From: Geodermatophilus poikilotrophus
Lineage (GTDB): Bacteria > Actinomycetota > Actinomycetes > Mycobacteriales > Geodermatophilaceae
Assembly (NCBI RefSeq): GCF_900111455.1
Contig: NZ_FOIE01000001.1
Span: 62,001-126,000, forward strand
Direction: 5' to 3'
Length of the DNA stretch: 64,000 bases
Shown: one piece after another, positions 9,117-62,765 of the stretch
How the letters are laid out: each line of letters opens with the position of its first letter
Position numbering within the stretch: the first letter of the stretch is position 1
Notes under the pieces: model-generated
Seen by the model: the letters and a program-made list of their open reading frames with translations, nothing else
What the model was told of the DNA's origin: nothing
Database searches by the model: none
Translations under genes and position numbers: made by a program

Positions 9117-9149
9117 TCGGCACCAGCCCGGCACCGGCAGGCTGCTGCC

Positions 9150-10436: not shown

Positions 10437-10562
10437 GCCCGGACGGGGCCTGCGGCTCGTCCACCCCGGCTGCCGGGGCGATTGCAGCCCGTTGGGCCGG
10501 GAGCCTCGACCGTCTCTCGCACCGGGCCCGCCGCGGGCCCCGACCTCGACAGGAGGACGATC

Positions 10563-32437: not shown

Positions 32438-32608
32438 GCGCGTTCCCCCACCACCGTGGGCACGCCCGGAGCGCCACCGACCGGGACGGCGGCCACGCGC
32501 TCCCCGACCGCCTCGGCGGCGGACCAGCCGGCAGGACAGGGAGGCGGCCGACGGCTGACGGGTCGGCAGCGCCGGCTCGCCCGGTCGCCCGGTCGCCGGC
32601 GTCCGTGC

Positions 32609-33847: not shown

Positions 33848-34185
33848 CCCACACCTCCTGAGTCACCCACCAGCGCCTCGACGACCTGTCGTCCCGTGGT
33901 GGACGGGCGGGTGGCTCCGAGCCCCGAGCGGGGCTCTGCGGTGAGCCGCGTCACATCATGCTCGTCGGGGCTCCGGATCGGAACCGGAGCCGGGGACACC
34001 CGTGGGCGTCGCCGGAGCGGTCGTCCCGGAGCACTCCGGTCCGTCCGCCGGACGGTGGACCGGCAGCCCGAGCAGGCCCGGGGGTCGCCGGCCTGCTCGA
34101 CCCGCTTCCGGTGGCACCGGGTGCGGAGTTGGAGCAGAGTCCACAGTGCTCTGGATCACACCGCACCCAGGACCGGGGGGCGACC
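33848..34185. other. glgC-glucokinase divergent promoter region
   Basis: 338 bp with no supported gene. A small 7-bp-stem hairpin (gagcccc/ggggctc, 33919-33936) lies near glgC. It should hold promoters for both divergent genes; no clear operator is seen. Confidence 0.45.
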
Positions 34186-35130: not shown

Positions 35131-35220
35131 GGCACGACGGGGGAGAGGACTCGCGGGGGTGCCAGACGGCACGGCCGGGCGACACAGGGTGGAGTGCAGG
35201 GGACGGCGGAGGGGGATCCG

Positions 35221-36696: not shown

Positions 36697-36804
36697 CGGC
36701 CGTTCCTGCGTTCGCTCCCCGGACGGTGTGCGGATCCGTGGTCCGGCGGCCGGTCGGTTGCCTAGACTCTCCTCCCCGGAGGTCGACGCGCGGAGGTCGA
36801 TCAC

Positions 36805-37272
36805 ATGCGCAGGTATCTCGTCGTCGCGAACCAGACCCTGGGCGGTCGGGAACTCCGGGAGGAGCTCCGCAGACGTGCGGTGGCGGGGGAGTCCTCGTTC
36901 TACGTGCTCGTGCCCAACACCCGGGCGGCGCACTACCACGTCGTGCCGGCCGCCGGTGGCCTGGTCCCCATGCCGAGCATGGCCACGGGCTACGGCGGGC
37001 CCGAGACCGACGAGGAGGCGACCGAGGAGGCCCGGGGGCGGCTGTCCCGGATCCTGGCCGAACTGGCCGAGCTGGGGGTCGAGGCCGAGGGGCACCTGGG
37101 CAGTCCTCAGCCGATGGCGGCCATCGAGGACGCCCTCAGCGGCCACCGCTTCGACGAGGTCATCGTGGCGACCCTGCCCAAACGGGTCTCGCGCTGGCTC
37201 GGCTCGGACGTGCCGCACCAGGTCGAGCGCCGCTTCGGGCTGCCGGTCACCACGGTCGTGGGTCGAGCCTGA
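36805..37272 (+). CDS. Universal-stress-like small protein
   Basis: A 155-aa protein with a USP/nucleotide-binding-like alternation of strands and helices. MRRYLVVANQTLGG is the first strand, SSFYVLVPNTRAAHYH the second, FDEVIVATLPKRVSRWLGSD a later strand-loop resembling the USP phosphate loop, and GLPVTTVVGRA the last strand. Similar short proteins are common in actinobacteria and uncharacterised. ATG 36805 with a weak upstream purine stretch (cggagg). Confidence 0.75.
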   Translation: MRRYLVVANQTLGGRELREELRRRAVAGESSFYVLVPNTRAAHYHVVPAAGGLVPMPSMATGYGGPETDEEATEEARGRLSRILAELAELGVEAEGHLGSPQPMAAIEDALSGHRFDEVIVATLPKRVSRWLGSDVPHQVERRFGLPVTTVVGRA

Positions 37273-37771
37273 CCGGGAGACCCGACGCGGGCGGCACCAC
37301 CGCCGCCACCGGAGTGATCGGGAGGGATCGCCGTCGCCGCCTGCCGTGCAGGCACCAGCCCCCGTCTCCACCCGCCGACCCACGGGCGGAGCGGACCGGA
37401 GCCCCCGGCCACCACGTGCGTCACCGCGCCGACGTGCACGGTGGCGCACGTGGCTGCCGAGCGGTGCGCGAGTCGTCCCCGTCGCTCCGGAGCGCCCGGA
37501 CGCCTCGAGCCGGCGGGGCGGGGAGACACGAAGTGCCCGGTGACCGTGGGCCGGGTCGTCCGCAGACTGGGGTCATGCCGACGGCGACCGCAGCGACCGC
37601 GAGGCGCAGGTCCGGCGCGCACACTGCACCACCTCGGGGCGAGGACCGACCACGTGGGCCCAGGACGACCGCCCTGCGCGTGGCGGTGCGACGCGGTTCC
37701 GCCCGGCGTGACCGCGCGGGCTCCCCGAGGGCCGTTCGACGCCTCCGACCCGACGTCACGAGGAGCCTGGG
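37273..37771. other. Gene-free stretch
   Basis: About 500 bp with no frame showing conserved features. It contains the ribosome-binding and promoter region of the aminotransferase gene at its right end. Confidence 0.45.
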
Positions 37772-39166
37772 ATGACCACCTCGATCGAACAGCCTCCGGC
37801 CGGTGTACCGGACGCGACGGCGGCCCGCGCCGCTGACCACCTCTGGATGCACTTCGCCCGCCAGGGCCGCCACCCGGAGACGCCCGTCCCGGTGATCACC
37901 CGCGGGGAGGGGGCCTACATCTGGGACAACCGGGGCCGGAAGGTCCTCGACGGCCTGTCCGGGCTGTTCGTCGTCCAGGTCGGGCACGGGCGCCGGGAGC
38001 TGGCCGAGGCGGCGGCGAAGCAGGCGGCCGAGCTGGCGTACTTCCCGGTGTGGGGCTACACCACACCGGTGCAGGCCGAGCTGGCCGAGCGGGTGGCCGA
38101 CCTCGCGCCCGGCGACCTGAACCGCGTCTTCTTCACGACCGGCGGCGGAGAGGCCGTGGAGTCGGCGTGGAAGGCCGCGAAGCAGTACTTCAAGCTGATC
38201 GGCAAGCCCCAGAAGCACAAGGTGATCAGCCGGGCGGTGGCCTACCACGGGACCCCGCACGGTGCCCTGGCCATCACCGGGCTGCCCGCCATGAAGAAGG
38301 ACTTCGAGCCGCTGGCCCCGGGCGGCTTCCGGGTGCCCAACACCAACCTCTACCGCCACCCCGAGTTCGCCGAGGACCCCAAGGCCTTCGGCCGCTGGGC
38401 CGCCGACCGGATCGAGGAGGCGATCCTCTTCGAGGGCGCCGACACCGTCGCCGCGGTGTTCCTGGAGCCGGTGCAGAACTCCGGCGGCTGCCTCACGCCT
38501 CCGCCGGGCTACTTCGAGCGGGTCAGGGAGATCTGCGACAGGCACGACGTCCTGCTCGTCTCCGACGAGGTCATCTGCGCCTTCGGCCGGCACGGCGTGA
38601 CCTTCGCCTGCGAGAAGTTCGGCTACACGCCCGACCTGATCACCTGCGCCAAGGGCATGAGCTCCGGCTACGGCCCGATCGGCGCGATGATCGCCTCGGA
38701 GAAGGTCGTCGAGCCCTTCCTGCGCCCAGGAGTGGCGTTCCCGCACGGGTACACGTTCGGCGGCCACCCCGTGGCGGCGGCCGTCTCGCTGGCCAACCTG
38801 GACCTCATGGAGAGCGAGGGGCTCAACCAGCGCGTGCTCGACAACGAGGCGGCGCTGGGTGCCACCCTGCGCGAGCTGCTCGACCTGCCGATCGTCGGCG
38901 ACGTCCGCGGCGACGGCTACTTCTGGGCCGTCGAGCTGGTCAAGGACAAGGCCACCCGGGAGACGTTCGGCGCCGCGGAGCGGGAACGGCTCGTCCGCGG
39001 CTTCCTGCCCGGCGCGCTGTTCGACAACGGCCTGTACTGCCGCCCCGACGACCGCGGCGACGTGGTCGTCCAGGTCGCTCCGCCGCTCATCTGCGGCCAG
39101 GCGGAGTTCGACGAGATGGAGCAGATCCTGCGGCACACGCTGACCGAGGCCCAGGGCCTGGTCTGA
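37772..39166 (+). CDS. Class III (omega) aminotransferase
   Basis: A 464-aa PLP-dependent fold-type I transaminase, close to the omega-amino acid/beta-alanine:pyruvate and putrescine group. It shows the cofactor loop FTTGGGEAVESAWKAAKQYF, the PLP Asp in LVSDEVICAFGR and the Schiff-base Lys294 in TCAKGMSSGYGPIGA. Such enzymes move a terminal amino group from a diamine or omega-amino acid to pyruvate, giving L-alanine and a semialdehyde. The next gene is alanine dehydrogenase, which would regenerate pyruvate; this supports pyruvate as the acceptor. Confidence 0.88.
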   Translation: MTTSIEQPPAGVPDATAARAADHLWMHFARQGRHPETPVPVITRGEGAYIWDNRGRKVLDGLSGLFVVQVGHGRRELAEAAAKQAAELAYFPVWGYTTPVQAELAERVADLAPGDLNRVFFTTGGGEAVESAWKAAKQYFKLIGKPQKHKVISRAVAYHGTPHGALAITGLPAMKKDFEPLAPGGFRVPNTNLYRHPEFAEDPKAFGRWAADRIEEAILFEGADTVAAVFLEPVQNSGGCLTPPPGYFERVREICDRHDVLLVSDEVICAFGRHGVTFACEKFGYTPDLITCAKGMSSGYGPIGAMIASEKVVEPFLRPGVAFPHGYTFGGHPVAAAVSLANLDLMESEGLNQRVLDNEAALGATLRELLDLPIVGDVRGDGYFWAVELVKDKATRETFGAAERERLVRGFLPGALFDNGLYCRPDDRGDVVVQVAPPLICGQAEFDEMEQILRHTLTEAQGLV

Positions 39167-39273
39167 GGAAGGACCTCCCTGCCCCCCACCGCGCCGCGAC
39201 CGCACCCGACGTCCCGACCCGCGACAACCGCCCCGGTGCGACCGCACCGGCCCTCGACCGGAGGAGATCGGCC

Positions 39274-40404
39274 ATGAGCACGCCCGTCGTCGGAGTACCG
39301 ACCGAGATCAAGGACAACGAGCGGCGGGTGGCGCTCACCCCCGACGGTGTCGTGGAGCTGGTGCACGACGGTCACCAGGTCGTCGTGCAGGCCGGTGCCG
39401 GCGTCGGGTCCCGGTTCGCCGACGACGAGTACGCCGCGGCCGGCGCCAAGGTCGTGCCGACCGGCGACGAGGTGTTCGACGCCGCCGACCTCATCGTCAA
39501 GGTCAAGGAGCCGGTGCCCGCGGAGTACGACCGCTTCCGCCCGGGCCAGCAGCTGTTCACCTACCTGCACCTCGCTGCCGACCGCGGTCTCACCGAGTTC
39601 CTGCTCGAGCGGCGGATCGACTCCATCGCCTACGAGACCGTGCAGACCGCCGACGGCAAGCTGCCGCTGTTGACCCCCATGAGCGAGGTCGCGGGCCGGA
39701 TGGCCGTGCAGGCCGCCGCCCACCACCTGGAGAACCCGGCAGGTGGAGCGGGGATCCTGCTGGGCGGCGTCCCCGGCACCCCCGCGGCGAAGGTCCTCAT
39801 CATCGGCGGTGGGGTGGCCGGCACGGAGGCGGCGAAGATCGCGCTGGGGATGCGGGCCATCGTCCGGGTCCTCGACACCAACCCCAGTCGACTGGCCTAC
39901 CTGTCCGACATCTTCGGCGGGCGGCTGGACCTGGTGACGCCCAACCGCGCCCGGACGGCGGCCTACGTCGCCGAGGCCGACGTCGTGATCGGCGCGGTCC
40001 TCGTGCCCGGCGCCAAGGCACCCAAGCTCGTCAGCAGGGAGATGATCGCCGCGATGCGCCCGGGCAGCGTGGTCGTCGACATCGCGATCGACCAGGGCGG
40101 CTGCTTCGAGACCAGCCGGCCGACCACCCACTCCGACCCGACCTACGTCGAAGAGGGCGTCGTCCACTACTGCGTGGCCAACATCCCCGGGGCGGTGGCC
40201 CGTACCTCCACCCTGGCCCTGACCTCGGCCACGCTGCCGTACCTGGTCCGGGTCGCACGGCACGGCGTGACCGGTGCGGCCCAGGCCGACCCCGCCCTGC
40301 GTCTCGGCCTCAGCACGCTCGACGGGCGGCTCGTCAACCAGTCGGTCGCCGAGGCCCACGACGTGCCCTTCACCGACCCCGCCGAGCTCCTCGCTGCCCG
40401 GTGA
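39274..40404 (+). CDS. ald: Alanine dehydrogenase
   Basis: A 376-aa NAD-dependent L-alanine dehydrogenase (L-alanine to pyruvate + NH4+ + NADH). N-terminal VGVPTEIKDNERRVALTPDG, catalytic Lys in VKVKEPV and His in YLHLAAD are present. The NAD-binding GGGVAGTEAAKIALGMRA and the conserved VVDIAIDQGGCFETSRPTTH and ANIPGAVARTST segments follow. Length is typical. ATG 39274 has GGAGGAGATCGGCC upstream. It sits 107 bp after the aminotransferase in the same direction. Confidence 0.95.
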   Translation: MSTPVVGVPTEIKDNERRVALTPDGVVELVHDGHQVVVQAGAGVGSRFADDEYAAAGAKVVPTGDEVFDAADLIVKVKEPVPAEYDRFRPGQQLFTYLHLAADRGLTEFLLERRIDSIAYETVQTADGKLPLLTPMSEVAGRMAVQAAAHHLENPAGGAGILLGGVPGTPAAKVLIIGGGVAGTEAAKIALGMRAIVRVLDTNPSRLAYLSDIFGGRLDLVTPNRARTAAYVAEADVVIGAVLVPGAKAPKLVSREMIAAMRPGSVVVDIAIDQGGCFETSRPTTHSDPTYVEEGVVHYCVANIPGAVARTSTLALTSATLPYLVRVARHGVTGAAQADPALRLGLSTLDGRLVNQSVAEAHDVPFTDPAELLAAR

Positions 40405-49492: not shown

Positions 49493-50671
49493 TCAGGCGT
49501 CGATCCGCAGGTCGCTGAGCGGCTTGGAGCAGCAGATGAGCAGCTTGTCCTGCGCGATCTCGCGCGGCCGGATCCCACCCTGGTGCTGCATGTCCACGGT
49601 GCCCGAGAGCACGGTCGTCTTGCAGGTGCCGCACATCCCCTGGCCGCACGACGAGGGAGGGGTCAACCCAGCCTCCCACGCGGCGTCCAGGACGTTCTCG
49701 TCGGCGCCGCAGGGGAACGTGCGACCGCTGCGGACGAACTCGACCGAGAAGACGACGGGCCGTGCCCCAGCGCTCGACGGCCGGGATCCGTCGGCACCCG
49801 CGGGGTCCGCCGGTTCGGGAGCCGCCTCCACCATGAGGTCCTCGAACGAGAACGACTCCTCGTGGTACCGCGTCATGTCGAAGCCTGCCGCGACGAGCAT
49901 CCGACGGACCGCGGCCATGTACGGGGCGGGTCCGCAGCAGAACACCTCGCGCTCGTGGAGGTCGGGGGCGAGCACCCGCAGCATCTCGTCGGTCAGGAAG
50001 CCCCGGAGCCCGACCCACGGCTCCCGAGGGGAGTCCCGCTCGCAGACGTGGGCGACGCGGATGGTCGGCGCCACGCTCGCCATCACGTCGAGCTCGCGCC
50101 GGAAGATGATGTCGGACGGCGTCCGGGCGCTGTGCACGAACAGGACGTCGGTGTCCGCGCCGAGGTCGTGCAACGTGCGCGTCATGGACATGAGCGGGGT
50201 GATGCCGCTGCCCGCGGACAGGAACAGGTACTTGGCTGCCGGGTGCCGGGCGGCCGAGAACAGCCCGAACGGTCCGTCGGCCGAGACGCGCTGCCCGGGG
50301 CCCATGGTGTCGTGCAGCCAGGTGGAGACGAGCCCTCCGGGCTGGCGCTTGACCGTGATCCCGATCAGGTGGGGCCGCGTCGGTGGCGTGGAGATCGTGT
50401 AGCACCGGTCGATCGGGCGGCCGCCGATCTGCAGTCGCAGGGTGATGAACTGGCCCGGGTCGTAGTGGAACAGCGCGGGTTCCTCGGACTCGAAGAGGAA
50501 CGTCTTGACGTCGTGGGTGATGTCGAGGACCTGCCGGCACACCAGCGTGCAGTTGTCCGTCTCGCCCCAGACCGGCAGCACGGACGGGTGGGCTGTCAGG
50601 CCGACCTGCCCAGCAGCAGGGGCCGGCGGGACTGCGTCCGGTACCGCCACGGGGCTGGGGCGCGCGGTCAT
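49493..50671 (-). CDS. Betaine N-demethylase reductase (FAD/2Fe-2S)
   Basis: A 392-aa electron-transfer reductase. It has a FAD-binding ferredoxin-reductase barrel (PGQFITLRLQIGG, then RCYTISTPPT), an NAD domain (YLFLSAGSGITPLMSMTRTL and FCCGPAPYM) and a C-terminal plant-type 2Fe-2S ferredoxin. The ferredoxin cysteines are in SSCGQGMCGTC and CCSKP. The architecture is that of GbcB, Stc4 and HpbC, the reductases of Rieske-type betaine demethylases. The start ATG 50671 is taken; the frame is open further upstream without conserved sequence. The partner oxygenase lies two genes upstream, beyond the IclR gene. Confidence 0.88.
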   Translation of the reverse strand: MTARPSPVAVPDAVPPAPAAGQVGLTAHPSVLPVWGETDNCTLVCRQVLDITHDVKTFLFESEEPALFHYDPGQFITLRLQIGGRPIDRCYTISTPPTRPHLIGITVKRQPGGLVSTWLHDTMGPGQRVSADGPFGLFSAARHPAAKYLFLSAGSGITPLMSMTRTLHDLGADTDVLFVHSARTPSDIIFRRELDVMASVAPTIRVAHVCERDSPREPWVGLRGFLTDEMLRVLAPDLHEREVFCCGPAPYMAAVRRMLVAAGFDMTRYHEESFSFEDLMVEAAPEPADPAGADGSRPSSAGARPVVFSVEFVRSGRTFPCGADENVLDAAWEAGLTPPSSCGQGMCGTCKTTVLSGTVDMQHQGGIRPREIAQDKLLICCSKPLSDLRIDA

Positions 50672-50791
50672 CGTGGAGCCTCTCGACGTACGGGGTCGGT
50701 CACCGGGGTGTCGGCCGGCGACGGGTCGGGTGTGGGGCGTCGGGCGCAGGCCCGGGTCGCGCCGCCGCGTGCGGGTCCGCACGGCGTCGGC

Positions 50792-51692: not shown

Positions 51693-52955
51693 CTAGCGGG
51701 ACAGGTGAGCGGCCAGCCGGGAGACGTACCAGGTCACGAAGGCCTCGACGTCCCCCTCGACCGTCGAGTACGGGCCCGGCTGGTAGCCGGGGTCCGCGAC
51801 GCCCTCCTGGGTGCGGGCCACCAGGACCCCGTCCTGCTGGTTCGTCGCCTGCCAGACCCTGGTCAGGGTGGCCACGTCGTAGTCCACGCCCTCGACCGCG
51901 TCCGGGTGGACCAGCCACGTCGTCCGCAGCAGGGTCCGGTCCGGCGCGAGCGGCAGCACGGAGAACAGCACCGCGTGGTCGGCCAGCAGGTGGAACCACG
52001 AGTTCGGCTGCATGTGCAGGGACAGGTCACCGAAGCGGTCCGTGGTCACGGATCCCATCAGCCTGCCGCACACCGACTCGCCGTTCGTGTTGAACGACTT
52101 GCCGGCACCGTCGAGGGGGGCGTGGGAGAGCTGGAAGCCCGTGGCACGGGTGTCGAGCTCCCGCGCTCCCTCGAGGGGGAAGCCCTGCCGGACGCACGCC
52201 GACCGGAGTGCGGCGGCGGCCTGGGTGTAGCGCTGGTGGACGGGCCGCAGCCGCGGCGGGACGTCCTCGGCGGAGTAACCGAACAGGGGGAAGTAGGCGC
52301 TCAGCAGCTCGGGGTGGCCGTCGCAGTGGTAGCACTCGCGGTTGTTCTCCATGACGAGCTTCCAGTTGCCGGTCTCGACGATGTCGTCCTGGTGGGCGAT
52401 CTTCGCCCGGCTCAGCCCGTACGGGGCCAGAAAGGGCTCGATGCGCGCGGCGACCTCGTCGAAGTCGGCCGGTGGGTCGTCGGCGAGGCACAGGAACACC
52501 AGACCGCCGGTGCTGCGCACGTGCACCGGCCTCAGGCCGAAGCAGCTGCGGTCGAACGAGGCCGGCTGGTTGTCGGCGTGCATCAGGCGACCGTCGACGC
52601 CGTAGGTCCAGTGGTGGTACGGGCAGACGAGGTTCCCCACGCTGCCCCGTACGTCGTCGAGCAGCCGCGATCCCCGGTGCCGGCACACGTTGTGGAAGGC
52701 GCGCACCTCGTCGTCGTCGTCCCGGACGATGATCACGGAGTAGCCGCCCACCGCGACGGTGACGAAGTCGCCCGGTTCGGGGAGTTCCGCCTCGGCCGCC
52801 GCGAAGAGCCAGTGCCCGGCGAAGATCGCGCGCAGGTCCAGGTCGAAGACCTCCTGGCTCGTGTAGAAGGGCGCCTCCAGGCTGTACCCGGGAACGCGAC
52901 GCGCCACCAGGTCGACCAGGTCGTGACCGGTGGGGCGCTCGAGCTGCATGGTCAT
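51693..52955 (-). CDS. Rieske-type betaine N-demethylase, oxygenase subunit
   Basis: A 420-aa ring-hydroxylating-type oxygenase alpha subunit. The Rieske [2Fe-2S] ligands are C91-R-H93 and C111-PY-H114 (NVCRHRGSR / CPYHHWTYG). The mononuclear iron ligands are His210 and His214 in ENNRECYHCDGHPEL. The ENNRECYHC..HPEL signature is typical of GbcA, Stc2 and HpbB, which remove a methyl group from quaternary amines. ATG 52955 with GGAG 8 nt upstream; the frame continues further up but without conserved sequence. With the HpbD homologue nearby, its likely substrate is proline betaine or hydroxyproline betaine, with glycine betaine as the alternative. Confidence 0.9.
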   Translation of the reverse strand: MTMQLERPTGHDLVDLVARRVPGYSLEAPFYTSQEVFDLDLRAIFAGHWLFAAAEAELPEPGDFVTVAVGGYSVIIVRDDDDEVRAFHNVCRHRGSRLLDDVRGSVGNLVCPYHHWTYGVDGRLMHADNQPASFDRSCFGLRPVHVRSTGGLVFLCLADDPPADFDEVAARIEPFLAPYGLSRAKIAHQDDIVETGNWKLVMENNRECYHCDGHPELLSAYFPLFGYSAEDVPPRLRPVHQRYTQAAAALRSACVRQGFPLEGARELDTRATGFQLSHAPLDGAGKSFNTNGESVCGRLMGSVTTDRFGDLSLHMQPNSWFHLLADHAVLFSVLPLAPDRTLLRTTWLVHPDAVEGVDYDVATLTRVWQATNQQDGVLVARTQEGVADPGYQPGPYSTVEGDVEAFVTWYVSRLAAHLSR

Positions 52956-53538
52956 GGTGCGTCTCCTGGGAGGGGACGAGCTCTCGATCTCTGCTGGTGC
53001 GGCGTGGACCTGCTCGGGTGTCGGCCCGGCGTCGTGGTGACCACTGAGTGGATGGACCTGCCCACCTGGTGAGTGGAGCACGATGCCTCGAGGGGAGTCA
53101 AGGGCTCGGGAGCCCGTCGACCGCCCGGACAGGTGCTCGTCGTGGTGCGACGGTCGGAGGTGCAGGCCGGCCGTCGGGAGAGCAGGAGCCCGTACGCGTC
53201 GAGTCGGTCCACCCCGGTCCGGGCGCCGTGGACCGCACGCTCCTGCAGCACGTCGGCCACCGCCGCTGCGAACGGCTCGGCTCGGCCCTGGGCTCGCTCC
53301 GCAGGCCCGAGGACCGATCAGCTCGTCGCCGTCCACGTCCCGAGGTGCGGCAGCGGGGACACCGGCTCGGCCGGTGTCCCCGCTGCCGACCGCGGGACGT
53401 CGTACCCGGTCCTGGTGGCCTGGCGGGACGACGGGCCCGGTGTGCCGGTCACGAGCGGCTCCCCGCAGCAGGAGTGCGGGCAGGGGCCGATCAGGTCCGG
53501 CGGCACGGCCCGCCGACGCACGCTGGGCGCTGCGCTCG
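52956..53538. other. Intergenic region between Rieske gene and BCCT transporter
   Basis: About 580 bp without a supported gene. It contains a strong terminator for the BCCT gene (53350-53386). The remaining ~390 bp upstream of the Rieske gene should hold its own promoter. Frames present on both strands lack conserved features. Confidence 0.5.
53350..53386 (-). terminator. Strong hairpin downstream of BCCT gene
   Basis: A perfect 16-bp stem (gcagcggggacaccgg and complement) with a 5-nt loop, about 150 bp after the BCCT stop on the minus strand. It would separate BCCT transcription from the Rieske gene. Confidence 0.65.
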
Positions 53539-55344
53539 TCAGGTCGGTGTCTGTGACGCCGCCGGTTCGCGGGTGGGAGCGGCGACGCCGTTCTCCGGGT
53601 CGGCCGGGGTCGGCTGCCGGGCGGGGTCGGGTTGGGAGACCGTGCCCTGTCGCATCTCCGCGACCACCGTGCGGACACCGGGCGGGACGGTGGTGACCAC
53701 CGGCTCGCTGCGCAGTTGCTTGAGCAGGCTGTAGCAGACACCGAGCATGACGACCAGGAACGGGACGCCGAACACGATGACCGTGGTCTGGATCGCGTCC
53801 AGACCCCCGGCGAGCAGCAGGGCGATCGCGACCGCGCCGATCATCGATCCCCAGGTCACCACCAGCCAGGTCCGGGGGTGCAGCGAGCCGCCCTGGGAGA
53901 GCATCCCGAGCACCAGGGACGCCGCGTCGGCGCCGGCGACGTAGAACAGCATGATCAGGACGACGACGAGCACCGCGGTGAGGGTCGAGAACGGCAGCGC
54001 GTCGAGCAACGTGAACAGGGTGTTCTCGACACCCGTGGCCAGCGAGCCGGCCATGTCGGTGACCCCGCTCAGCTGGAACCGGATGGCGGTGCCACCCATC
54101 ACCACGAACCAGACCGTGCTGACGAGCGTCGGGACGATCAACACGCAGATCACGAACTCGCGGATGGTGCGTCCCCGGGAGATCCGGGCCATGAAGGTGC
54201 CCACGAACGGGGCCCACGACATCCACCACGCCCAGTAGAAGATCGTCCAGCCGGCGAGCCACTCGCCGCCACCGTTGGCACCGGTGCGGAACGACATGGG
54301 CACGAAGTGGGCCAGGTAGCCGCCGAAGGACTCGACGAAGGTGTTCATCAGGAAGATCGTGGGCCCGAAGGCGAACACGAAGAGCAGGATCCCGACGGCC
54401 AACCCGGCGTTGATGTTCGCCATCCACTTGACGCCGCGCTCGGTCCCGCTGACCGCCGACACCACGAACAGGGCGGTCAGCACGACGATCACCACGATGG
54501 AGACGGTGTTGCTCTGGGGGGCGTCGAAGACCCGCGTCAGCCCGCTGTTGATCTGCAGGGCGCCCAGGCCCAGGGACGTGGCCGCCCCGAAGGTGGTGAT
54601 GAACAGGCCGAAGATGTCGACGGCCCGGCGGGCAGGGTGCGCGGGGTCCTTCCGCGGGAAGACGATCGAGCTGAGCAGGTTGGGCAGGCCCTTGCGGAAC
54701 GTCGCGTAGGCCAGGGCGAGCCCGACCACGCCGTACAGCGCCCACGGGTGCAGGCCCCAGTGGAAGATCGTGTACTCCATGCCGAGCTGGGCGGACTCCG
54801 GCGTCGCGGCCTCGGCGAGCCCCAACGGCGGCGTGAGCAGGTGCGACAGCGGCTCGGCGACGCCCCAGAAGATCAGCCCGATGCCCATCCCGGTGGCGAA
54901 CATCATCGAGATCCACGAGACGGTGCTGAACTCCGGCCGCTCGTCGTCGCGGCCCAACCGGATCCGCCCGTAGCGCGAGAGCGCGAGCAGCAGCATGAGT
55001 GCGACGAAGCCGACCGTCACGAGCACGTACACCCAGCCGGTGGCGTCGATCATCTTGGCCAGGACCGAGGAGGCAGCCGTGGCCAACGACGTCGGCGAGA
55101 GCACACCCCACAGCACGAACGCCACGGTCACAGCGAGGCCGGAGACGAAGACGGTCTTGTCGACCGGGTGGTCCACGTCGGCGGCTCGCGGGTGCATCCG
55201 GTCGTCATCGGGCGCGGCGTGGACGTAGCGGGGGGTGACGAGGACCGTCTCCTCGACCGTCACGTCGCCGTCGACGGCTCGGGTGTGCTCCCGGGGGTCT
55301 CGGGGAGCGGCAGGGGCGGCGCGCTCGGGGTCGTCGGGGCTCAT
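53539..55344 (-). CDS. BCCT-family betaine transporter
   Basis: A 601-aa, 12-TM betaine/choline/carnitine transporter. After a ~50-residue acidic N-terminal tail, TM1 begins at DKTVFVSGLAVTVAFVLWG. The glycine-rich TM3 (MMFATGMGIGLIFWGVAEPL) and the family signature in TM8 (WTIFYWAWWMSWAPFVGTFM followed by ARISRGRTIREF) are clear. The Trp-rich segment forms the quaternary-ammonium aromatic box. ATG 55344 has GGAAGG 7 nt upstream. In this locus it would import (hydroxy)proline betaine. Several BCCTs also act as osmotic-stress transporters, which is not excluded. Confidence 0.92.
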   Translation of the reverse strand: MSPDDPERAAPAAPRDPREHTRAVDGDVTVEETVLVTPRYVHAAPDDDRMHPRAADVDHPVDKTVFVSGLAVTVAFVLWGVLSPTSLATAASSVLAKMIDATGWVYVLVTVGFVALMLLLALSRYGRIRLGRDDERPEFSTVSWISMMFATGMGIGLIFWGVAEPLSHLLTPPLGLAEAATPESAQLGMEYTIFHWGLHPWALYGVVGLALAYATFRKGLPNLLSSIVFPRKDPAHPARRAVDIFGLFITTFGAATSLGLGALQINSGLTRVFDAPQSNTVSIVVIVVLTALFVVSAVSGTERGVKWMANINAGLAVGILLFVFAFGPTIFLMNTFVESFGGYLAHFVPMSFRTGANGGGEWLAGWTIFYWAWWMSWAPFVGTFMARISRGRTIREFVICVLIVPTLVSTVWFVVMGGTAIRFQLSGVTDMAGSLATGVENTLFTLLDALPFSTLTAVLVVVLIMLFYVAGADAASLVLGMLSQGGSLHPRTWLVVTWGSMIGAVAIALLLAGGLDAIQTTVIVFGVPFLVVMLGVCYSLLKQLRSEPVVTTVPPGVRTVVAEMRQGTVSQPDPARQPTPADPENGVAAPTREPAASQTPT

Positions 55345-55389
55345 GGCACACCTTCCGTTCCGCACGGCGCTTCGGTAGCGCCACACGAA

Positions 55390-55411
55390 ACAGTGCTACG
55401 TGGACCACTGT
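55390..55411 (-). promoter_or_regulatory. Operator-like inverted repeat upstream of BCCT gene
   Basis: acagtg-N10-cactgt, 46 bp before the BCCT start, overlaps a minus-strand TTGACA (-35-like, 55414-55409). No clear -10 is seen. It could be a regulator-binding site for the adjacent GntR-type fusion or the IclR protein. Confidence 0.5.
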
Positions 55412-55532: not shown

Positions 55533-57095
55533 TCACGTGCTCCCGCTCGGCCGTGATCTGGTGGCGGGGAGCTGGCCGAGCATGTAGGTGGCGGCGTCGT
55601 CGATCTTGCGGCGCCAGCGTTCCACCGCGACCTCACCGTCCCCGGTGTCGATGGCCTCGAAGATGGCGCGGTCGTCGCGCACGATCGCGTCGATCGGATA
55701 CGCGTACTCCAGCCCCATCACGGCGATGAACACGCGCAGGTGGTCCGCCAGGACCTCCAGCATGGGCGCGATGCGGACCAGGCCCGAGGCTTCGGCGAGG
55801 GTGTTCTGGAAGGCGATGTCCGCCTCGCCGGTCCGGTGGACGTCGCCGGTCGCGGCGCACCTCTCCAGCGCGTCCAGCGACTCCGCGACCGACTGCCGTT
55901 CCTGCGGGGACCAGCGGACGGCGGCTCGGATCACCAGGGCTCCCAGCGCTCGCCGAGCGGCGTACGTCTCGACGACGTCGCTCCTCGTCAGGACGGGGAC
56001 CACCGCCGCGTGCCCCGTCGTGATCGTCAGCAGGCCGTCCCGCTCCAGGAGTCGCATCGCCGTCCTGACCTGGGCCCGCGACGTCCGCAAGCGACCCGCC
56101 AGGAAGCGCTCGGTGACGCGGTCCCCGCCGGCGATCCGGCCCTCCGCGATGCCCTGCCGGATCGTTCCGACGATCTCGTCGGCGAGAGCTCGTTCCGGTC
56201 CGAGGTGACGCACCGGGGACCGGGCCGCGGATCCGCGGCTCCGTGCCGTCCCGGTGGCGGGACGCACCCAGGTGAACGCGCGGCGGGGCCCCCGCGCCCA
56301 CGAGCGGAGTTCGCCCTCCAGCTGCAGTGCCGACGCGGGCGGGAGGAGCGGCCCCCAGCCGAGGAGGAGCGGGAAGAGGGACAGCCACTCGTCGACGTCC
56401 CGGCACACCCCTCGAACCGACACCTCGGCCGGCACGGGAGCCTCCTGGGACGCGAGGGTCATCAGGGTCGCGTCCGGGTCGGCCGCGTCCACCACCTCGT
56501 CCCAGAACGGCCTCGTGTCAGCGGGGGAGGTCGCCGGGACCTGAGGGCGCACCAGTTCGGAGGCCAGGACGGTGCGCAGTGACCGGTGCACCGCCGGGTC
56601 GACCCGTGCCCGTGGGGCGGGGTCCTGCCCCCGGGGGACGGCCGTGAGCTGGCAGGCCAGGACGGCGTACTCCGCCGTCACCAGGAGGCCGAGGACCGCC
56701 GGCTGGCGCCCGGCCGTCGCGGCGGTCAGGTCGGCGCTGAACGCGGTGCCGGCCCGCATGGCCTCCCAAGCGCGCGCCACGAAGGACTGGCTGACGCCGA
56801 GAGCGTCAGCGATGGAGCGACTGGACCACTTGGTGGTGGGCATCCACAGCGGCGCGGTGAGGGTGGCGTGCCTCAGCTCCAGCGTCGTCCGGCGTCGGTG
56901 GGCGGGCCGGCTCAGCCGTGCCGCCCCGCCCGTGCGGTACCGCTGCGCCCACTTCGCGGCGGTCTGCCTGGTGACGCCGTGTTCCCGGGCGGCGCGCGCG
57001 GGCCCGAGCGACAGCACGTCCTGCACCAGCCGTGCACGCACGCGGACCGCCTCGTCGACGTCCCGCGACAGGGCCTCGAGCTCCGGATCGCCCAC
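55533..57095 (-). CDS. Fusion regulator: transposase-like HTHs + GntR/FCD
   Basis: A 520-aa protein with an uncommon layout. Residues ~20-70 form an HTH of the IS630/helix-turn-helix-29 type (PARAAREHGVTRQTAAKWAQ), and ~88-113 a second HTH (SSRSIADALGVSQSFVARAW). Residues 130-295 form an uncharacterised domain. Residues ~300-365 are a complete GntR winged helix (ADEIVGTIRQGIAEGRI..RTSRAQVRTAMRLLERDGLL) and ~370-505 an FCD-like helical domain. FCD metal-ligand His positions appear changed: FQNTL in place of FHxxL, and DDRAIFEAI in place of EHRAI. GTG 57095 has GAGGAG upstream. It is divergent from the demethylase at 57264 and upstream of BCCT, so it probably regulates both. Confidence 0.8.
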   Translation of the reverse strand: MGDPELEALSRDVDEAVRVRARLVQDVLSLGPARAAREHGVTRQTAAKWAQRYRTGGAARLSRPAHRRRTTLELRHATLTAPLWMPTTKWSSRSIADALGVSQSFVARAWEAMRAGTAFSADLTAATAGRQPAVLGLLVTAEYAVLACQLTAVPRGQDPAPRARVDPAVHRSLRTVLASELVRPQVPATSPADTRPFWDEVVDAADPDATLMTLASQEAPVPAEVSVRGVCRDVDEWLSLFPLLLGWGPLLPPASALQLEGELRSWARGPRRAFTWVRPATGTARSRGSAARSPVRHLGPERALADEIVGTIRQGIAEGRIAGGDRVTERFLAGRLRTSRAQVRTAMRLLERDGLLTITTGHAAVVPVLTRSDVVETYAARRALGALVIRAAVRWSPQERQSVAESLDALERCAATGDVHRTGEADIAFQNTLAEASGLVRIAPMLEVLADHLRVFIAVMGLEYAYPIDAIVRDDRAIFEAIDTGDGEVAVERWRRKIDDAATYMLGQLPATRSRPSGST

Positions 57096-57263
57096 CTGGC
57101 TCCTCGACCGTAGGTGCGCAGTGTAACTCGGTGACTCACGCCCGGTACCGGTCCCGACGTCGTGCTACCGGACCGGTGGACGCCGCTGCACTCTTCCTCC
57201 CGACGCGACCGGGGCCCGCCGGCCTCGAGGACGCCCTCTGCCGCCGCTGCTCCTGGAGGCACC

Positions 57264-59297
57264 ATGCAGTCTGCAGACCCGTTGCTGAGCCCCTTCACGA
57301 TCAAGAACGTCACGTTGCGCAACCGGATCGTCAGCACGTCCCACGAACCCGCGTACAGCGAGGACGGGCTGCCCGGGGACCGGTACCGGGCCTACCACGT
57401 CGAGAAGGCGAGGGGCGGGGTCGGGCTCACGATGATCGGCGGCAGCGCCATCGTCAGCCCGGAGAGCGCGCCGGCGTTCGGCAACCTGCAGCTGTTCAAG
57501 GACGAAGCGGTCCCGCTGCTGCATCGTCTCGCGGACGAGGTCCACGAACACGGCACCGCGGTCATGACCCAGCTGACCCACCTCGGCCACCGGACCAGCA
57601 ACTACACCCACGACTGGCTACCGGCTCTGTCGGTCAGCGCCCTCCGTGAGTCCTCGCACCGGGCGTTCACGCGGCCGGCCGACCGGTGGGACCTCGACCG
57701 CATCGTCCGTGACTTCGCCGACGCGGCCGTGCGGTGCAGGGAGGGTGGGCTGGACGGCATCGAGCTCATGGCGTACGGGCACCTGCTGGACGCCTTCTGG
57801 ACCCCGGCCCGGAACCGCCGCGAGGACGAGTACGGAGGATCGTTCGAGAACCGCATGCGTTTCCCGCTGCAGGTCGTCCGTGCCATCCGCGCCGCCGTCG
57901 GGGAGGACTTCGTCGTCGGCGTGCGCATGACCTTCGACGAGGGCCGCACGAACGGTCTCCGGACGGAGGAGGCCCTGCGGATCGCGCACGAGCTGACCGG
58001 TGCGGGCATCGACTTCTTCAGCGTGATCAAGGGGTTCATCGACACCGACGCCGAGTTGGCGCAGATGATCCCCCCGATGGGCACGCCGGCGGCGCCGCAC
58101 CTGGCGTTCACGGGCTGGGTGAAGGAGAACGTCGACGTCCCGGTCATGCACGCCGCCAAGATCGGGGACGTGGCGACGGCGCGGTACGCCGTGACGGAGG
58201 GCCTCGTGGACCTGGTCGGGATGACCCGGGCGCTGATCGCCGACCCTCATCTGCCGAACAAGGTCGCAGCCCGGCAGACGGACCGGATCCGACCCTGTGT
58301 CGGCGCCAACATGTGCATCGACGGCATCTACAGCTCCGGGTCGGCCATGTGCGCCCACAACCCGTCGACCGGTCGGGAACTGCACCTCCCGCACACGGTC
58401 CGCAAGGCGACCGAGCGGAAGGAGGTCGCCGTCGTCGGCGGTGGACCCGCGGGACTGGAGGCCGCCCGGACCCTCGCCGAGCGAGGACACACGGTCGTCC
58501 TCTTCGAGGCGAACCCGAGCCTGGGCGGCCAGATCGCCCTCGCCGCGAAGTCCCCGCGGCGACGTGACCTGATCGGGATCGTCGACTGGCGGATCGAGGA
58601 GTGCAAGCGGCTCGGTGTCCACCTGGAGCTCAACCACTTCGCGGAACCGGACGAGCTCGCCGGCGGGGACTTCGACGTCGTCGTGGTCGCGACCGGCGGC
58701 CTGCCCGACGTCGGGGTCGCCGAGGGCAGCCACCTCGCCGTCGACTCCTGGGACGTGATGTCGGGAGCGGTCAAGCCCACCGGCGCCGTGCTCGTCTACG
58801 ACGACCACGGCGGGCACCAGGCGCTCGACGCCATCGAGATGGTCGCGCCTGCCGCCGCCTCGGTCGAACTCGTCACGCCGGAGCGGACCATCTCGCCCGA
58901 CGTCGGTGCGCTGACGATGGCCGGCTACCTGCAGATGCTCGCCGAGCACGACGTGACGGTGACGCCGGCTCACCGCCTGGTCCGCGTCGAACGATCGGAC
59001 GGACGACTCAAGGCGACGTTCGCCGTGGACGGTGCTCGGCGGTCGATCGAGCGGTACGCCGACACCATCGTGATCGAGCACGGGACGCTACCGGTGACCG
59101 ACCTGTACGACGCACTCGTGGACGCGTCGACCAACTGCGGCGAGATCGACACCAGGGAGCTCCTGGCGCTGTCGCCCCAGTCGCCGACCCACAACGACGA
59201 CGGCCGGTTCCGCATCTACCGCGTCGGCGATGCGGTCAGCAGCCGCAACATCCACGCGGCCGTGCTCGACTCCTTCCGCCTGTGCAGTGCGATCTGA
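57264..59297 (+). CDS. TMADH/DgcA-like N-methyl(hydroxy)proline demethylase
   Basis: A 677-aa flavoprotein of the OYE/trimethylamine dehydrogenase family. It has an N-terminal FMN barrel (NRIVSTSHEP..FWTPARNRREDEYGGSFENR), a central Cys segment C345-VGA-NM-C351 and C363, and FAD/NAD-type Rossmann folds (VAVVGGGPAGLEAARTLAE). Of the four TMADH 4Fe-4S cysteines (345, 348, 351, 364) the second is Ala348. I recall the same CVGAxxC pattern in DgcA/HpbA-like demethylases, but could not check it. These remove the last N-methyl group from dimethylglycine or N-methylproline. ATG 57264 with CTGGAGG upstream. It lies beside hpbD, completing a betaine-to-proline route. Confidence 0.88.
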   Translation: MQSADPLLSPFTIKNVTLRNRIVSTSHEPAYSEDGLPGDRYRAYHVEKARGGVGLTMIGGSAIVSPESAPAFGNLQLFKDEAVPLLHRLADEVHEHGTAVMTQLTHLGHRTSNYTHDWLPALSVSALRESSHRAFTRPADRWDLDRIVRDFADAAVRCREGGLDGIELMAYGHLLDAFWTPARNRREDEYGGSFENRMRFPLQVVRAIRAAVGEDFVVGVRMTFDEGRTNGLRTEEALRIAHELTGAGIDFFSVIKGFIDTDAELAQMIPPMGTPAAPHLAFTGWVKENVDVPVMHAAKIGDVATARYAVTEGLVDLVGMTRALIADPHLPNKVAARQTDRIRPCVGANMCIDGIYSSGSAMCAHNPSTGRELHLPHTVRKATERKEVAVVGGGPAGLEAARTLAERGHTVVLFEANPSLGGQIALAAKSPRRRDLIGIVDWRIEECKRLGVHLELNHFAEPDELAGGDFDVVVVATGGLPDVGVAEGSHLAVDSWDVMSGAVKPTGAVLVYDDHGGHQALDAIEMVAPAAASVELVTPERTISPDVGALTMAGYLQMLAEHDVTVTPAHRLVRVERSDGRLKATFAVDGARRSIERYADTIVIEHGTLPVTDLYDALVDASTNCGEIDTRELLALSPQSPTHNDDGRFRIYRVGDAVSSRNIHAAVLDSFRLCSAI

Positions 59298-59760: not shown

Positions 59761-60864
59761 TCAGAAGGACGCCACTGGAGTGCCGAAGAGGCTCTCATCG
59801 GGCTCGACGCCCAGGCCGGCGCCTTGCGGTCGCTTGATGTGGCCCCCTTCGGCGCGGATGCCGTTCTCCGGGTCGTAGTGCCCCTCGATGTAGGGGGCCG
59901 CCAGCCAGACGCCTTCGAGGAGCTCAGGTGCCACCGTTGCGCCGATGTGGGTGCAGGCGGCGGCGATGATGTCTCCGCCCCAGGAGTCGTCGCAGGTGTG
60001 CGGCAGGTTCCGTGCGGCGCAGACGTCGCGGAATGCGCGCATCGGGTGCAGCCCACCGATCCGGGTGACCTTCATCCCGAAGCCATCGACCAGTCCGGTG
60101 CCGGCGGCGGTGATCGCCGTGTTCAGGCTGGTGCTGTTCTCGTCCATGTAGATGCCGTGACCGACCTGCGGACGGATCTTCTGCAGGTCCTCGATGGTGT
60201 TGCAGGGTTGCTCCATGATGAAGGGGATGTCCGGGCACTCCCGGCTGAGCCGCAGCGCATCGCGCGTCGTGAGGCTGCGGTTGCCATCGACCGCCAGACG
60301 CATCCCCGACCCGCGGATGACCTCCCAGACCTTGCGGACGGTCTCGATGTCCTCCTCGACCGGCCGCCCACCGACCTTGACCTGCAGGCGCGGGTATCCC
60401 TCGGCGCGTTTCTCCGCTGCGAGGCGTGCGGTCTCGTCCGGCGGGCCCACAACGGTGGAGTAGTAGGACGGCACTCGATCTGTCACGGCGCCGCCGAGGA
60501 GGTCGGACACGCTGACGCCGAAGTGTCTGCCCAGGAGGTCGTGGGCGGCGATGTCGACGGCGGCCTTGGCGTAGTTGTGGCCGTTCAGCAAGCCGTCCAT
60601 GCGCCGGTGCAGCGGTATCGGCAGCACCTCGGCGCCCCTCAGTCCCGGCGCCATCTCGCTCAGTGCCGCCACGGCCCCGGCTGCGTGGGACTCGGCATAG
60701 GTGGGCCCGACCGGGCAGGTCTCGCCCCAGCCGACGTGTCCGGTGTCGGCCACCAGCTTGACGAGTGTCGTGGACAGGGACCGGACTTCTGCGAGGGCCA
60801 ACTTGTAGGGACCGTCGAGGACCGGCAGTTCGTGCCGGTAGACGTGGATCTCTGCGATCCTCAT
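59761..60864 (-). CDS. hpbD: 4-hydroxyproline betaine 2-epimerase (enolase superfamily)
   Basis: A 367-aa mandelate-racemase/muconate-lactonising enzyme-type protein. Catalytic Lys163 (QVKVGG) and Lys265 ([10 protein letters not shown]) occupy the positions known for HpbD. Metal ligands Asp193, Glu218 and Asp241 are in VDGNRS, MEQP and MDEN. The sequence follows HpbD along its length as I remember it, for example [46 protein letters not shown] and the C-terminal PDESLFG.PVASF. The enzyme inverts C2 of trans-4-hydroxy-L-proline betaine and also racemises proline betaine. ATG 60864. Placement beside demethylases and BCCT supports the betaine role. Confidence 0.92.
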
Positions 60865-61421
60865 CGTCCGATTCCCTGAGTGGTGGGTGGAACTCGCCCG
60901 TGCTCGTCTCGCTGGGGAACCGTTGCCGTGTCCCCGTCGATGTCGTGAGCCATTCCTCGGAGGGAGACTAGCGATCCGGACACGTCCGGCGCGCCGAGCG
61001 TGCGGCATCGCGCGTGTGGGAGACGGGAGCCTGCCGTCCGAGGTGCCGGTCGGAGGACGCGGTCGATCAGGGGACACCGGGCTCGGCTGGACCTGCGTCG
61101 CGACACGTCCCTGACTCTGGTCGGGTCGGGGACGTGTCGCGCCCCGTTGCGGGGGACGACCACGGCAACCGGCACACGGCAACGCGGTGCGAACGAGGCC
61201 GTGCCGGGCGGGACGACGGCGGAGGTCGCAGCCACCTGACCCGTGGAGACCGAACAGCCCCGCACCTCGACCAGCAACACCGCGGACGGGCAACCGGCCG
61301 GCCGCCGACCGCATCGACCTGCGCCGGACCGCCCGCGGCGCCCGATCGGTGCCAAGGTGTGGGGTCGACGTGGCGACGGTGCCGCTGACCTCGCCACTCC
61401 CCGTACCCCGAGGAGCAGGTC
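60865..61421. other. Divergent region between hpbD and gntP-like gene
   Basis: About 560 bp with no supported gene. It holds a hairpin (61100-61140). It also holds a block (about 61160-61200: ccacggcaaccg..cggcaacgcggtgcgaacgag) similar to the sequence upstream of the tRNA-Pro repeat near 20531-20566. The gntP ribosome-binding site GAGGAG lies at the right end. Confidence 0.5.
61100..61140. repeat. Inverted repeat / hairpin between hpbD and gntP-like gene
   Basis: gcgacacgtccc (61100-61111) pairs perfectly with gggacgtgtcgc (61129-61140) across a 17-nt loop. With that loop it could be a regulator site for the divergent promoters or a structured leader. Confidence 0.55.
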
Positions 61422-62765
61422 ATGGTCGTGCTTCACACCGCGATAGCCATCGCCGTCATCGTCCTGCTCATCATCAGGGTCAAGGTCGACCCGGTGATCT
61501 CGCTGATCATCGGGTCGCTCTACCTGGGCCTCGCGACCGGTGTCGGCTTCACGGCGACGCTGACGGCGATCGCCACCGGCTTCGGCGAGATCATGGGCGA
61601 GGTCGGCCTGCTCATCGGCTTCGGCGTGCTCATCGGCGCGATGCTCCATGCGATGGGCGCCTTCCGGAAGATGGTCACGATGCTCGTCGACCGCGTCGGC
61701 GCGCACCGGCTCCCGTATGCAATGACGGCGGCGATGTCGACGATCTTCCCGTCGATCTACGTGGACGTGCAGGTCGTGCTGGCCTCTCCGGTGGCGCGTT
61801 CGACCGCGCCGTTCATCGGCCGGACCGGCCTGCCGCACATGTCCGGGGCGCTCGGGACCGGGATCTTCGCCGGCTACGTCTTCGTGATCCCCGGACTGGC
61901 CGCGGTCTCCATCGCGGGCCTGCTCGGCATCCCACTGGGCACCTGGCTGCTCTACGGCCTCGTGCTGGGGCCGTTGACCGCGATCGTGACGACCCTGGTC
62001 TTCCGGTTGCTCCTGCGCGGCCGCTACTGGAACTCGGTCAAGGACGAGCACGTCGACGAGGCCATGGTCGAGCAGGAGACCACCGAGCTGGTCGAGTCGG
62101 ACAGCGCGACGCCGCCGCTGGTCGTCTGCCTGCTGCCCATCCTGGTGCCGCTGGTGATGATCGCGTTCGGTGCCTTCGCTGAGCTGTTGGAGTTCTCCAA
62201 CGACTTCATCGCCTTCCTCGGCGACGCCAACTTCGCGCTCTTCGTCGGCCTGATCGGTGCCTACGTGCTCTGCCGGCGCACCCTGGGCTCGGAGGGCACG
62301 GACACGGCGATGGGCGAGGGTTTCCACACCACCGGCGCCATCCTCCTCATCACCGGCATCGGCGGGTCCCTGGGCGCCGTCATCGGGGAGACCGGGCTGG
62401 ACACGATCCTGGCCGGCCTGTTCACCGCCGATGCCGGGGCACCGGTCATCCTCAGCATCCTGCTCGCATGGCTCATCGCGGCGGTGCTGCACCTGGCGAT
62501 CGGGTCGGTGTCGGTGGCCGCCATCACAGCCGCCGGCATCATCGGCCCGGTGCTCGGGTCGATCGACGTCTCGCCGCTCGTCATCGGCCTCGCCATCGCC
62601 TCGGGCGCGATGTTCGCGCTCCAGGTCAACAGCAACTTCTTCTGGATGTTCAAGTCGTTGCTGGGACTGTCGACCCAGGGCACCTTCAAGACCCTGACGA
62701 TGGTCACCTCCGTCGCTTCGGTCGTCTCGCTGCCGATGGTCATGGCGGTGGCGCTCATCGCGTAG
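61422..62765 (+). CDS. GntP-family (gluconate:H+ symporter-like) permease
   Basis: A 447-aa polytopic membrane protein of the GntP family, which imports gluconate or related hydroxy-acids with protons. Family-like segments: the N-terminal VIVLLIIRVKVDPVISLIIG, GFGVLIGAMLHAMGAFRKM, PVARSTAPFIGRTGLPHMSG, ITGIGGSLGAVIGETGLDTI and the C-terminal SNFFWMFKSLLGLSTQGTFK. GAGGAG precedes ATG 61422. It is divergent from hpbD. It could import an acid related to betaine breakdown, but no sugar-acid kinase or dehydratase is beside it, so the substrate is open. Confidence 0.9.
   Translation: MVVLHTAIAIAVIVLLIIRVKVDPVISLIIGSLYLGLATGVGFTATLTAIATGFGEIMGEVGLLIGFGVLIGAMLHAMGAFRKMVTMLVDRVGAHRLPYAMTAAMSTIFPSIYVDVQVVLASPVARSTAPFIGRTGLPHMSGALGTGIFAGYVFVIPGLAAVSIAGLLGIPLGTWLLYGLVLGPLTAIVTTLVFRLLLRGRYWNSVKDEHVDEAMVEQETTELVESDSATPPLVVCLLPILVPLVMIAFGAFAELLEFSNDFIAFLGDANFALFVGLIGAYVLCRRTLGSEGTDTAMGEGFHTTGAILLITGIGGSLGAVIGETGLDTILAGLFTADAGAPVILSILLAWLIAAVLHLAIGSVSVAAITAAGIIGPVLGSIDVSPLVIGLAIASGAMFALQVNSNFFWMFKSLLGLSTQGTFKTLTMVTSVASVVSLPMVMAVALIA

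Follow-up and report, generated by a model that had tools for sequence, protein, structure and literature searches.

Regulators made by fusing a transposase to a host gene are known from animals (SETMAR; F-box capture). SETMAR/Metnase joins the human Hsmar1 mariner transposase to a SET domain. SETMAR is reported to target transposon ends by preference, repression being stronger where the repeats are of higher fidelity (PMC8327481). FadR-type GntR/FCD regulators, among them the solved protein 2hs5 and the PhnR-type family TIGR03338, combine a GntR winged helix with an FCD domain. Here we describe a gene that carries both kinds of part, an IS630-type transposase half and a GntR/FCD half; it lies in a 64,000-nucleotide stretch of Geodermatophilus poikilotrophus DNA (contig NZ_FOIE01000001.1), hereafter the window. 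No published description of this architecture was recognised among the titles and abstract openings returned by searches of open-licence literature.

The likeness to SETMAR is the capture of a Tc1/mariner-type transposase by fusion to a host domain: the profile of the fusion family (A3) matches SETMAR PDB chain 7s03 over columns 52-125 (E 1.1e-4), and we find an orthologous locus, catalytic decay and purifying selection on the DNA-binding part, as expected of a SETMAR-kind protein. However, SETMAR is a eukaryotic histone methyltransferase whereas the partner here is a bacterial ligand-sensing DNA-binding regulator, and here, unlike in SETMAR, it is the fusion gene itself that the retained repeat precedes. 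With FadR-type regulators the protein shares the winged helix and the FCD domain, both over their Pfam cut-offs, but it adds a transposase half of ~300 residues, has Q430 and K497 in place of FCD histidines, and reaches 69 of the 271.5 bits of TIGR03338. With IS630 it shares the order of the helix-turn-helices (HTHs), a probable DDE domain traceable via intermediates, and a left repeat, joined in some relatives by a right-end relic; unlike IS630, it has one full-length genomic copy, an unrecognisable catalytic triad, no outermost TAGTGT and no separate transposase stop.

A single frame with two halves

The gene and its parts are:

55533..57095, minus strand: fusion gene, IS630-type transposase (HTH1, HTH2, eroded DDE) followed by a GntR winged helix and FCD; 520 aa, GTG start
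56751..57095, minus strand: residues 1-115, two transposase HTHs (HTH1 ~17-69, HTH2 ~90-114), by Pfam and profile comparison
56226..56744, minus strand: residues 118-290, probable eroded IS630 DDE (RNase H-like) domain, catalytic triad unrecognisable, assigned via relatives
55998..56183, minus strand: GntR winged helix, residues 305-366 (PF00392)
55602..55970, minus strand: FCD effector domain lacking the usual metal-binding histidines, residues 376-498 (PF07729)

From the GTG at 57095 to the stop at 55533 the frame comprises 520 codons and no internal stops. This check and the Pfam matches bear out the initial annotation, which had read here one frame with transposase-type HTHs, a middle part, put then at ~165 residues and now at ~170, and a GntR/FCD module. 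HTH1 exceeds the curated cut-offs of HTH_28 (residues 20-69, 36.0 vs 25), HTH_23 (residues 17-61, 33.0 vs 24.6) and HTH_29 (residues 31-68, 30.7 vs 28.1), as do the GntR (43.6 bits vs 27) and FCD (56.2 bits vs 24.3) domains theirs; the NCBIfam IS481/IS630 transposase matches of the N-terminus lie far under their equivalog cut-offs (31.1 vs 224, and 24.0 vs 100 for IS630). The annotation had also counted two N-terminal HTHs. Pfam upholds the first, but HTH2 (~90-110) is under the cut-off in the window protein (HTH_32, 17.8 vs 33.7) and over it in five relatives (L069, L071, L142, L143, L144). A profile of residues 1-117 matches 31 IS630 transposases at E 6e-17, which makes the paired HTHs homologous; the 31 remained of 44 transposase-like frames once 11 degenerate, interrupted or partial ones and 2 duplicates had been removed. 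HTH2 is still recognisable by eye in all 16 fusions found, and HTH1 is missing in two (G846, G1254). AlphaFold modelling of the window protein and three named relatives gave a mean pLDDT of 44.9 and a pTM of 0.35, too poor for use.

If residues 118-290 have no Pfam match, what are they? In calling the middle domain unknown the initial annotation was right as regards Pfam, but intermediate relatives connect it to the IS630 DDE domain. A direct comparison with IS630 transposases is weak, collinear and confined to the last 63-64 columns (E 0.016-0.036), and the homology of the window protein is for that reason drawn through intermediates. The long-form fusions (G377, G359, G910, G134) match the IS630 DDE domain across 177 columns at E 4.1e-26; the middle domain of G846/G279 reaches 3.9e-8 against IS630 and 1.7e-12 against the long forms; the Geodermatophilus-type middle domain matches G846/G279 across 130 columns at 4.6e-7 and the long form poorly (0.018); and that of G845, a single sequence, gives 0.0018 against IS630 and 0.27 and 0.42 against two fusion groups, the controls with the GntR/FCD part giving 0.87 and 0.12, each of these E-values being that of one pair among 13 comparisons altogether. 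Compared with intact transposases, the profile built from 14 fusions spans their columns 3-305 (E 1.3e-58). By these sequence comparisons residues 118-290 are probably an eroded IS630 DDE domain, linked through intermediate relatives. The domesticated transposase domain proposed initially is supported and exceeded: what precedes the regulator appears to be an entire IS630-type transposase, HTHs and eroded DDE domain.

By the usual DDE catalytic-residue conventions, the window protein has no acidic residues at the triad places of the A3 alignment, which is uncertain there; the four long forms retain some acidic triad residues, the final E having become D in all four. The fusion gene is present in one full-length copy in its own genome, where the N-terminal query found no further match at E 0.001 (6 candidates scored). 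A search of the plasmid collection with residues 1-292 returned 2 records, both IS630 transposases, neither covering 80% of the query.

In the C-terminal half, the closest solved relative of which is 2hs5 (E 9.5e-14), the stretch that we take to be the GntR recognition-helix region reads SRAQVRTAMRLL in the window protein and SRGPVREALRVL in the long forms G377, G910 and G134. Metal-binding histidines are typical of FCD domains, and some FCD proteins are without them. Their replacement, suspected from the start, is apparent against the solved FCD proteins 2hs5 and 7xp0: the F-H of 2hs5 corresponds to F-Q430, the H of R-R-H-I in 7xp0 to K497, and the middle histidine position falls within a D/N/T/G stretch. 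Q430 and K497 are invariant in all 14 aligned fusion proteins. Since the histidines are replaced, the FCD domain probably binds its ligand with no need of the metal that such domains normally carry.

Distribution, origin and selection

The initial annotation would have yielded to homologues whose first 300 residues are always a separate gene, or to a sequencing artefact joining two genes. Neither is the case: the single frame recurs, fused, in 16 genomes of four actinobacterial families (f1, f15, f17, f124), and an assembly artefact is excluded because, of 26 genomes from the genus, 5 have the full-length fusion, the other four copies being 83-87% identical to that of the window. The relatives include G. 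siccatus, G. sabuli and G. saharensis. In wider sets, which overlap one another and the genus set, 9 fusion-bearing genomes were found in a 397-genome sample of the order, 8 among 249 f15 family members, 3 (2 of them new) in a sample of 394 for the class and 1 in a sample of 396 for the phylum; absence from the larger sets is weak evidence because 3-6 candidates were scored per genome. A tenth order-level match, G115, covers columns 3-305 only and is a transposase rather than a fusion. G377 carries in addition a broken second copy (L145, G377:C10, minus strand), in pieces 9461-11068 and 9014-9457, split by an in-frame TAG.

In a GntR/FCD tree of 62 sequences, 14 fusions form one clade (100/100), and in a transposase-type tree of 55 sequences, for which fewer frames were dropped than for the 31-sequence alignment, the same 14 fall on one side of a branch (99/97), with long branches; G1139 and G1254, found later, are not in the trees. 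The transposase and the GntR/FCD regulator were apparently fused once in evolution, as judged from these trees. A possible donor was sought among eroded standalone IS630 proteins of genus g43 (L048 and others) and rejected: the tree sets them apart from the fusions. These proteins (L048, L049, L054, L060, L064, L068) are of IS630 type, their DDE residues being degenerate and a GntR half absent; the five included in the tree group by themselves (100/100), the genes flanking L048 and L049 look alike, and the group is probably a separate domesticated transposase.

Over the 15 pairs of six close relatives (the distant G882 being omitted), mean dN/dS is 0.185 in the HTH part, 0.200 in GntR, 0.242 in FCD and 0.602 (range 0.311-0.876) in the DDE-like part. 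The HTHs and the GntR/FCD half are under purifying selection, and the DDE-like part is relaxed in Geodermatophilus.

Relics of the element ends

Three intergenic elements recur in this account:

57120..57139, minus strand: GTGAGTCACCGAGTTACACT, left-repeat relic of an IS630 end and probable operator (end-matrix scan)
57162..57174, plus strand: GTGCTACCGGACC, a second conserved block ahead of the divergent gene, reading GGTACTACC in G025 and G394 (intergenic alignment, by eye)
55390..55411, no strand assigned: inverted repeat ACAGTG-N10-CACTGT, upstream of the BCCT gene (intergenic alignment)

Upstream of most fusion genes lies the pattern TGAGTC-N3-A[AG]TT, oriented as the left end of the IS. 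When copies were compared, active IS630 elements could be delimited cleanly in five of the six genomes examined. Their ends open with [G]CTAG-T/C-GT, and a common [TC]G[AC]GT[CT], in most cases TGAGTC, stands seven to eight bases inward. Both ends were available for 28 rows representing 26 distinct elements; 26 rows passed the matrix cut (pairs matching at least 17 of 24 bases), and the resulting end matrix of 44 distinct IS630 ends includes no fusion sequence. A 24-mer scan that includes the outer TAGTGT reached ranks of 1-4 in only six loci, those of the four long forms plus G279 and G846, the good-ranking site of G846 being at a different place, and failed in the 7 Geodermatophilus-type loci and G845 (ranks 16-215). 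With the 16-base core, the relic ranks 1 in G377, G359, G910 and G279, 2 in G134, 6 in G845 and 8 in G846, among 31,664-39,772 positions in these 7 loci not of Geodermatophilus type. None of 200 column-permuted matrices did as well over the 7, a rank that is not a probability because loci of one clade are not independent. Of two other loci, L172, found afterwards and with an uncertain start codon, ranks 1 of 39,772 and L173 only 83; no left-repeat relic was found upstream of the broken copy L145 (rank 101).

The Geodermatophilus core carries one extra spacer base, GTGAGTCACCGAGTTAC. In a variant of the scan that allows this base, introduced after the sequences had been seen, the Geodermatophilus-type loci rank 2 (the window), 3, 46, 1, 11 and 8, as against 38 for the window relic scanned without it; the relic of G882 was recovered neither with nor without the base. 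The geometry is as follows: from the repeat core to the RARIV codon the IS elements measure 132-151 nt in 24 of 28 rows (22 of the 26 distinct elements; the others 63, 160, 169 and 178), and the fusions 132-134 nt in four, 117-120 in three and 101-102 in six. The outermost TAGTGT is lost from the relic, and the two TA-ended repeats and several copies of a mobile IS were not found; the 20-base relic of the window occurs once in its own 4.83 Mb genome with up to 3 mismatches allowed. From its sequence and position, the relic at 57120-57139 is probably a DNA docking site of the fusion protein, that is, its predicted operator. The new operator specificity that the initial annotation had suggested for the transposase domain is accordingly plausible, with the upstream repeat as candidate site.

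The other end appears inside the protein. IS630 proteins terminate in RINDSGH in five of seven cases and in RIKNSGH and RINDSAH in the others, and the right repeat itself translates as INDSGH; the linkers of the long forms and of G846/G279 contain NDS, KDS or TDS. The best site of the end matrix lies there, with ranks 1, 1, 4, 11, 50 and 97 (rank 1 in G134 and G846), and 1 of 200 permuted matrices was as good over the 6 loci. The matrix scan found no such relic in the window, in the other Geodermatophilus-type loci or in G845. Because a left repeat lies upstream and some linkers hold a right-end relic, the IS630 element was apparently captured with both ends, loss of the stop at the right end fusing it to the regulator.

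A possible second operator

In 6 of the 16 loci (G377, G910, G359, G134, G846, G279), a palindrome TTGTnnACRA lies beyond the repeat core, at 34 bp in five and 35 bp in one, the bases between being little conserved. The palindrome, which with its six loci was chosen by eye, has an expected frequency of 0.0028 in shuffled 200-base regions, and its conservation and spacing may be partly those of a promoter, since it shares bases with what may be the -35 box of the divergent gene. The six loci group together in the C-terminal tree (94/89). The palindrome is absent within 250 bp in the other ten, including the window, and in these the GntR recognition-helix region differs too. In the window the block at 57162..57174 may, as a weak candidate, be the site of the GntR wing. 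The inverted repeat ACAGTG-N10-CACTGT, exact in five of six aligned loci and with one mismatch in G004, does not clearly resemble the relic terminal repeat when the two are compared by eye.

Catabolic neighbours

The neighbouring genes of the window are:

57264..59297, plus strand: divergent Oxidored_FMN (old-yellow-enzyme type) plus NAD(P)/FAD oxidoreductase (Pfam Oxidored_FMN, 191.7 bits)
53539..55386, minus strand: frame of a betaine-type BCCT transporter with a probable ATG at 55344, co-oriented with the fusion gene and downstream of it (NCBIfam)
51693..52958, minus strand: Rieske oxygenase, glycine-betaine monooxygenase GbcA-like (421 vs cut-off 670)
49493..50782, minus strand: Rieske reductase, GbcB-like (379.5 vs cut-off 500)

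The catabolic neighbours of the fusion genes, of proline, betaine or hydroxyproline type, are usually divergent. Eleven of the 16 loci have a divergently placed oxidoreductase of the old-yellow-enzyme type, adjoining or one gene off behind an MFS transporter; that of the window scores 478 against the cut-off of 793 for mycofact_OYE_2 and is, from sequence, probably an N-demethylase of presumptive substrate. On the other side, six Geodermatophilaceae loci share a BCCT transporter (the window frame scoring 498.7 vs 407.55 for bcct and 578 vs 650 for the glycine betaine BCCT family), a Rieske oxygenase, an IclR regulator and a glycine-betaine-monooxygenase-type reductase. Elsewhere the neighbours are proline-racemase/hydroxyproline-type enzymes (L144), a DapA-family enzyme and an amine oxidase (L140), P5C and aminobutyraldehyde dehydrogenases (the broken copy L145) and, in two loci (L172, L173), a PutA-like proline dehydrogenase. 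As many of these neighbours score under their NCBIfam cut-offs, the theme, catabolism of proline-type compounds and quaternary amines, is firmer than any one substrate.

Two further differences between the loci were seen. A gene resembling DddP-type DMSP lyases lies between the BCCT and Rieske genes in four of five relatives' loci (L036, L037, L038 and L075, the copy of the last scoring 290 vs 600) and is not listed in L076; the window has ~580 bases there. At 59761-60870 the window carries a gene of the enolase superfamily that resembles cis-3-hydroxyproline dehydratase (227 vs 500), and at 61422-62765 a GntP-type transporter gene; within the lengths fetched, the window and L076 alone among the Geodermatophilaceae loci compared have them.

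A model of the fusion and its alternatives

The homology of the parts, the single clade and the relics of the ends are read directly from the sequences; the model that connects them goes further. We give a probability of about two in three to the reading in which a captured IS630 element, joined to a GntR/FCD gene, yielded a regulator with two DNA-binding specificities and a proline-type ligand. A whole IS630-family insertion sequence would have come to lie upstream of a GntR/FCD regulator gene, the stop codon in its right terminal repeat would have been lost, joining the two frames, and its left terminal repeat would have remained in front of the fused gene; catalysis was apparently lost and the DDE part left to decay, while the transposase HTHs were retained. 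The product would dimerise through FCD and contact DNA by two different modules. Its transposase HTHs, mainly HTH2, may hold the relic at 57120-57139 beside the gene's own promoter, and the GntR wing may occupy a further operator, a palindrome that covers the divergent promoter. A proline-type ligand, whether proline betaine, N-methylproline or proline itself, would be recognised by the FCD domain, in which Q430 and K497 replace metal-binding histidines, presumably in keeping with proline-betaine pathway logic; it would release or rearrange the complex, switching on uptake and demethylation.

Must the transposase half bind DNA at all? It might be a decaying passenger, the GntR wing alone binding DNA, the TGAGTCA palindrome included. 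The relaxed DDE-like part (dN/dS 0.60) and the missing HTH1 of G846 and G1254 would fit such a protein; however, its HTHs, at 0.185, evolve no more loosely than GntR or FCD, HTH2 can be made out by eye in 16 fusions, and the promoter element persists both where GntR falls under its Pfam cut-off (G845, 22.4 vs 27) and where it is not listed (L172 and L173, the latter ranking only 83). We regard this explanation as unlikely, which still places it well above the two others.

One of these sees the fusion as a silencer of IS630 elements that occupies terminal repeats and blocks transposition, regulation being a side effect. A silencer would be expected to keep its transposase HTHs and to face an element resembling IS630 ends, as this one does, but its own genome offers little to silence: no other match to the N-terminal query turned up there at E 0.001 among 6 scored candidates, its 4.83 Mb contain the element a single time when up to 3 mismatches are allowed, and the gene sits stably beside catabolic genes, so that this role seems very improbable. 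Just as improbable is convergence, in which the N-terminus of an ordinary GntR/FCD regulator came to resemble transposase HTHs and the promoter repeat, an operator of other origin, just looks like IS630 ends. One HTH family is readily mistaken for another, and the window's middle domain is only weakly similar to DDE domains directly; yet the intermediates carry DDE homology over 177 columns (4.1e-26) in collinear order, the left-repeat matrix has its ranks and geometry, and some linkers hold a right-end relic. Convergence is largely excluded by the DDE intermediates, the repeat ranks and the relics of the ends.

Within the preferred reading, that of a captured element turned dual regulator, we lean towards a bacterial counterpart of SETMAR, at rather better than even odds: a single event would have supplied both protein and site, the repeat being kept as an operator in four families as the GntR wing or HTH1 eroded in some members. 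That the captured repeat is paired in one group with a second, GntR operator at fixed spacing belongs to the same proposal, and we hold it slightly more probable than its opposite.

Implications

The fusion would be an unusual regulator of dual specificity, and its two DNA sites can be tested separately. As a bacterial case with intermediates at different stages of decay, relics of both ends and a recurring pathway, it may allow the origin of a regulator to be traced step by step; in the fusion family one could follow which part is kept, which part decays, and how an operator and its protein stay matched.
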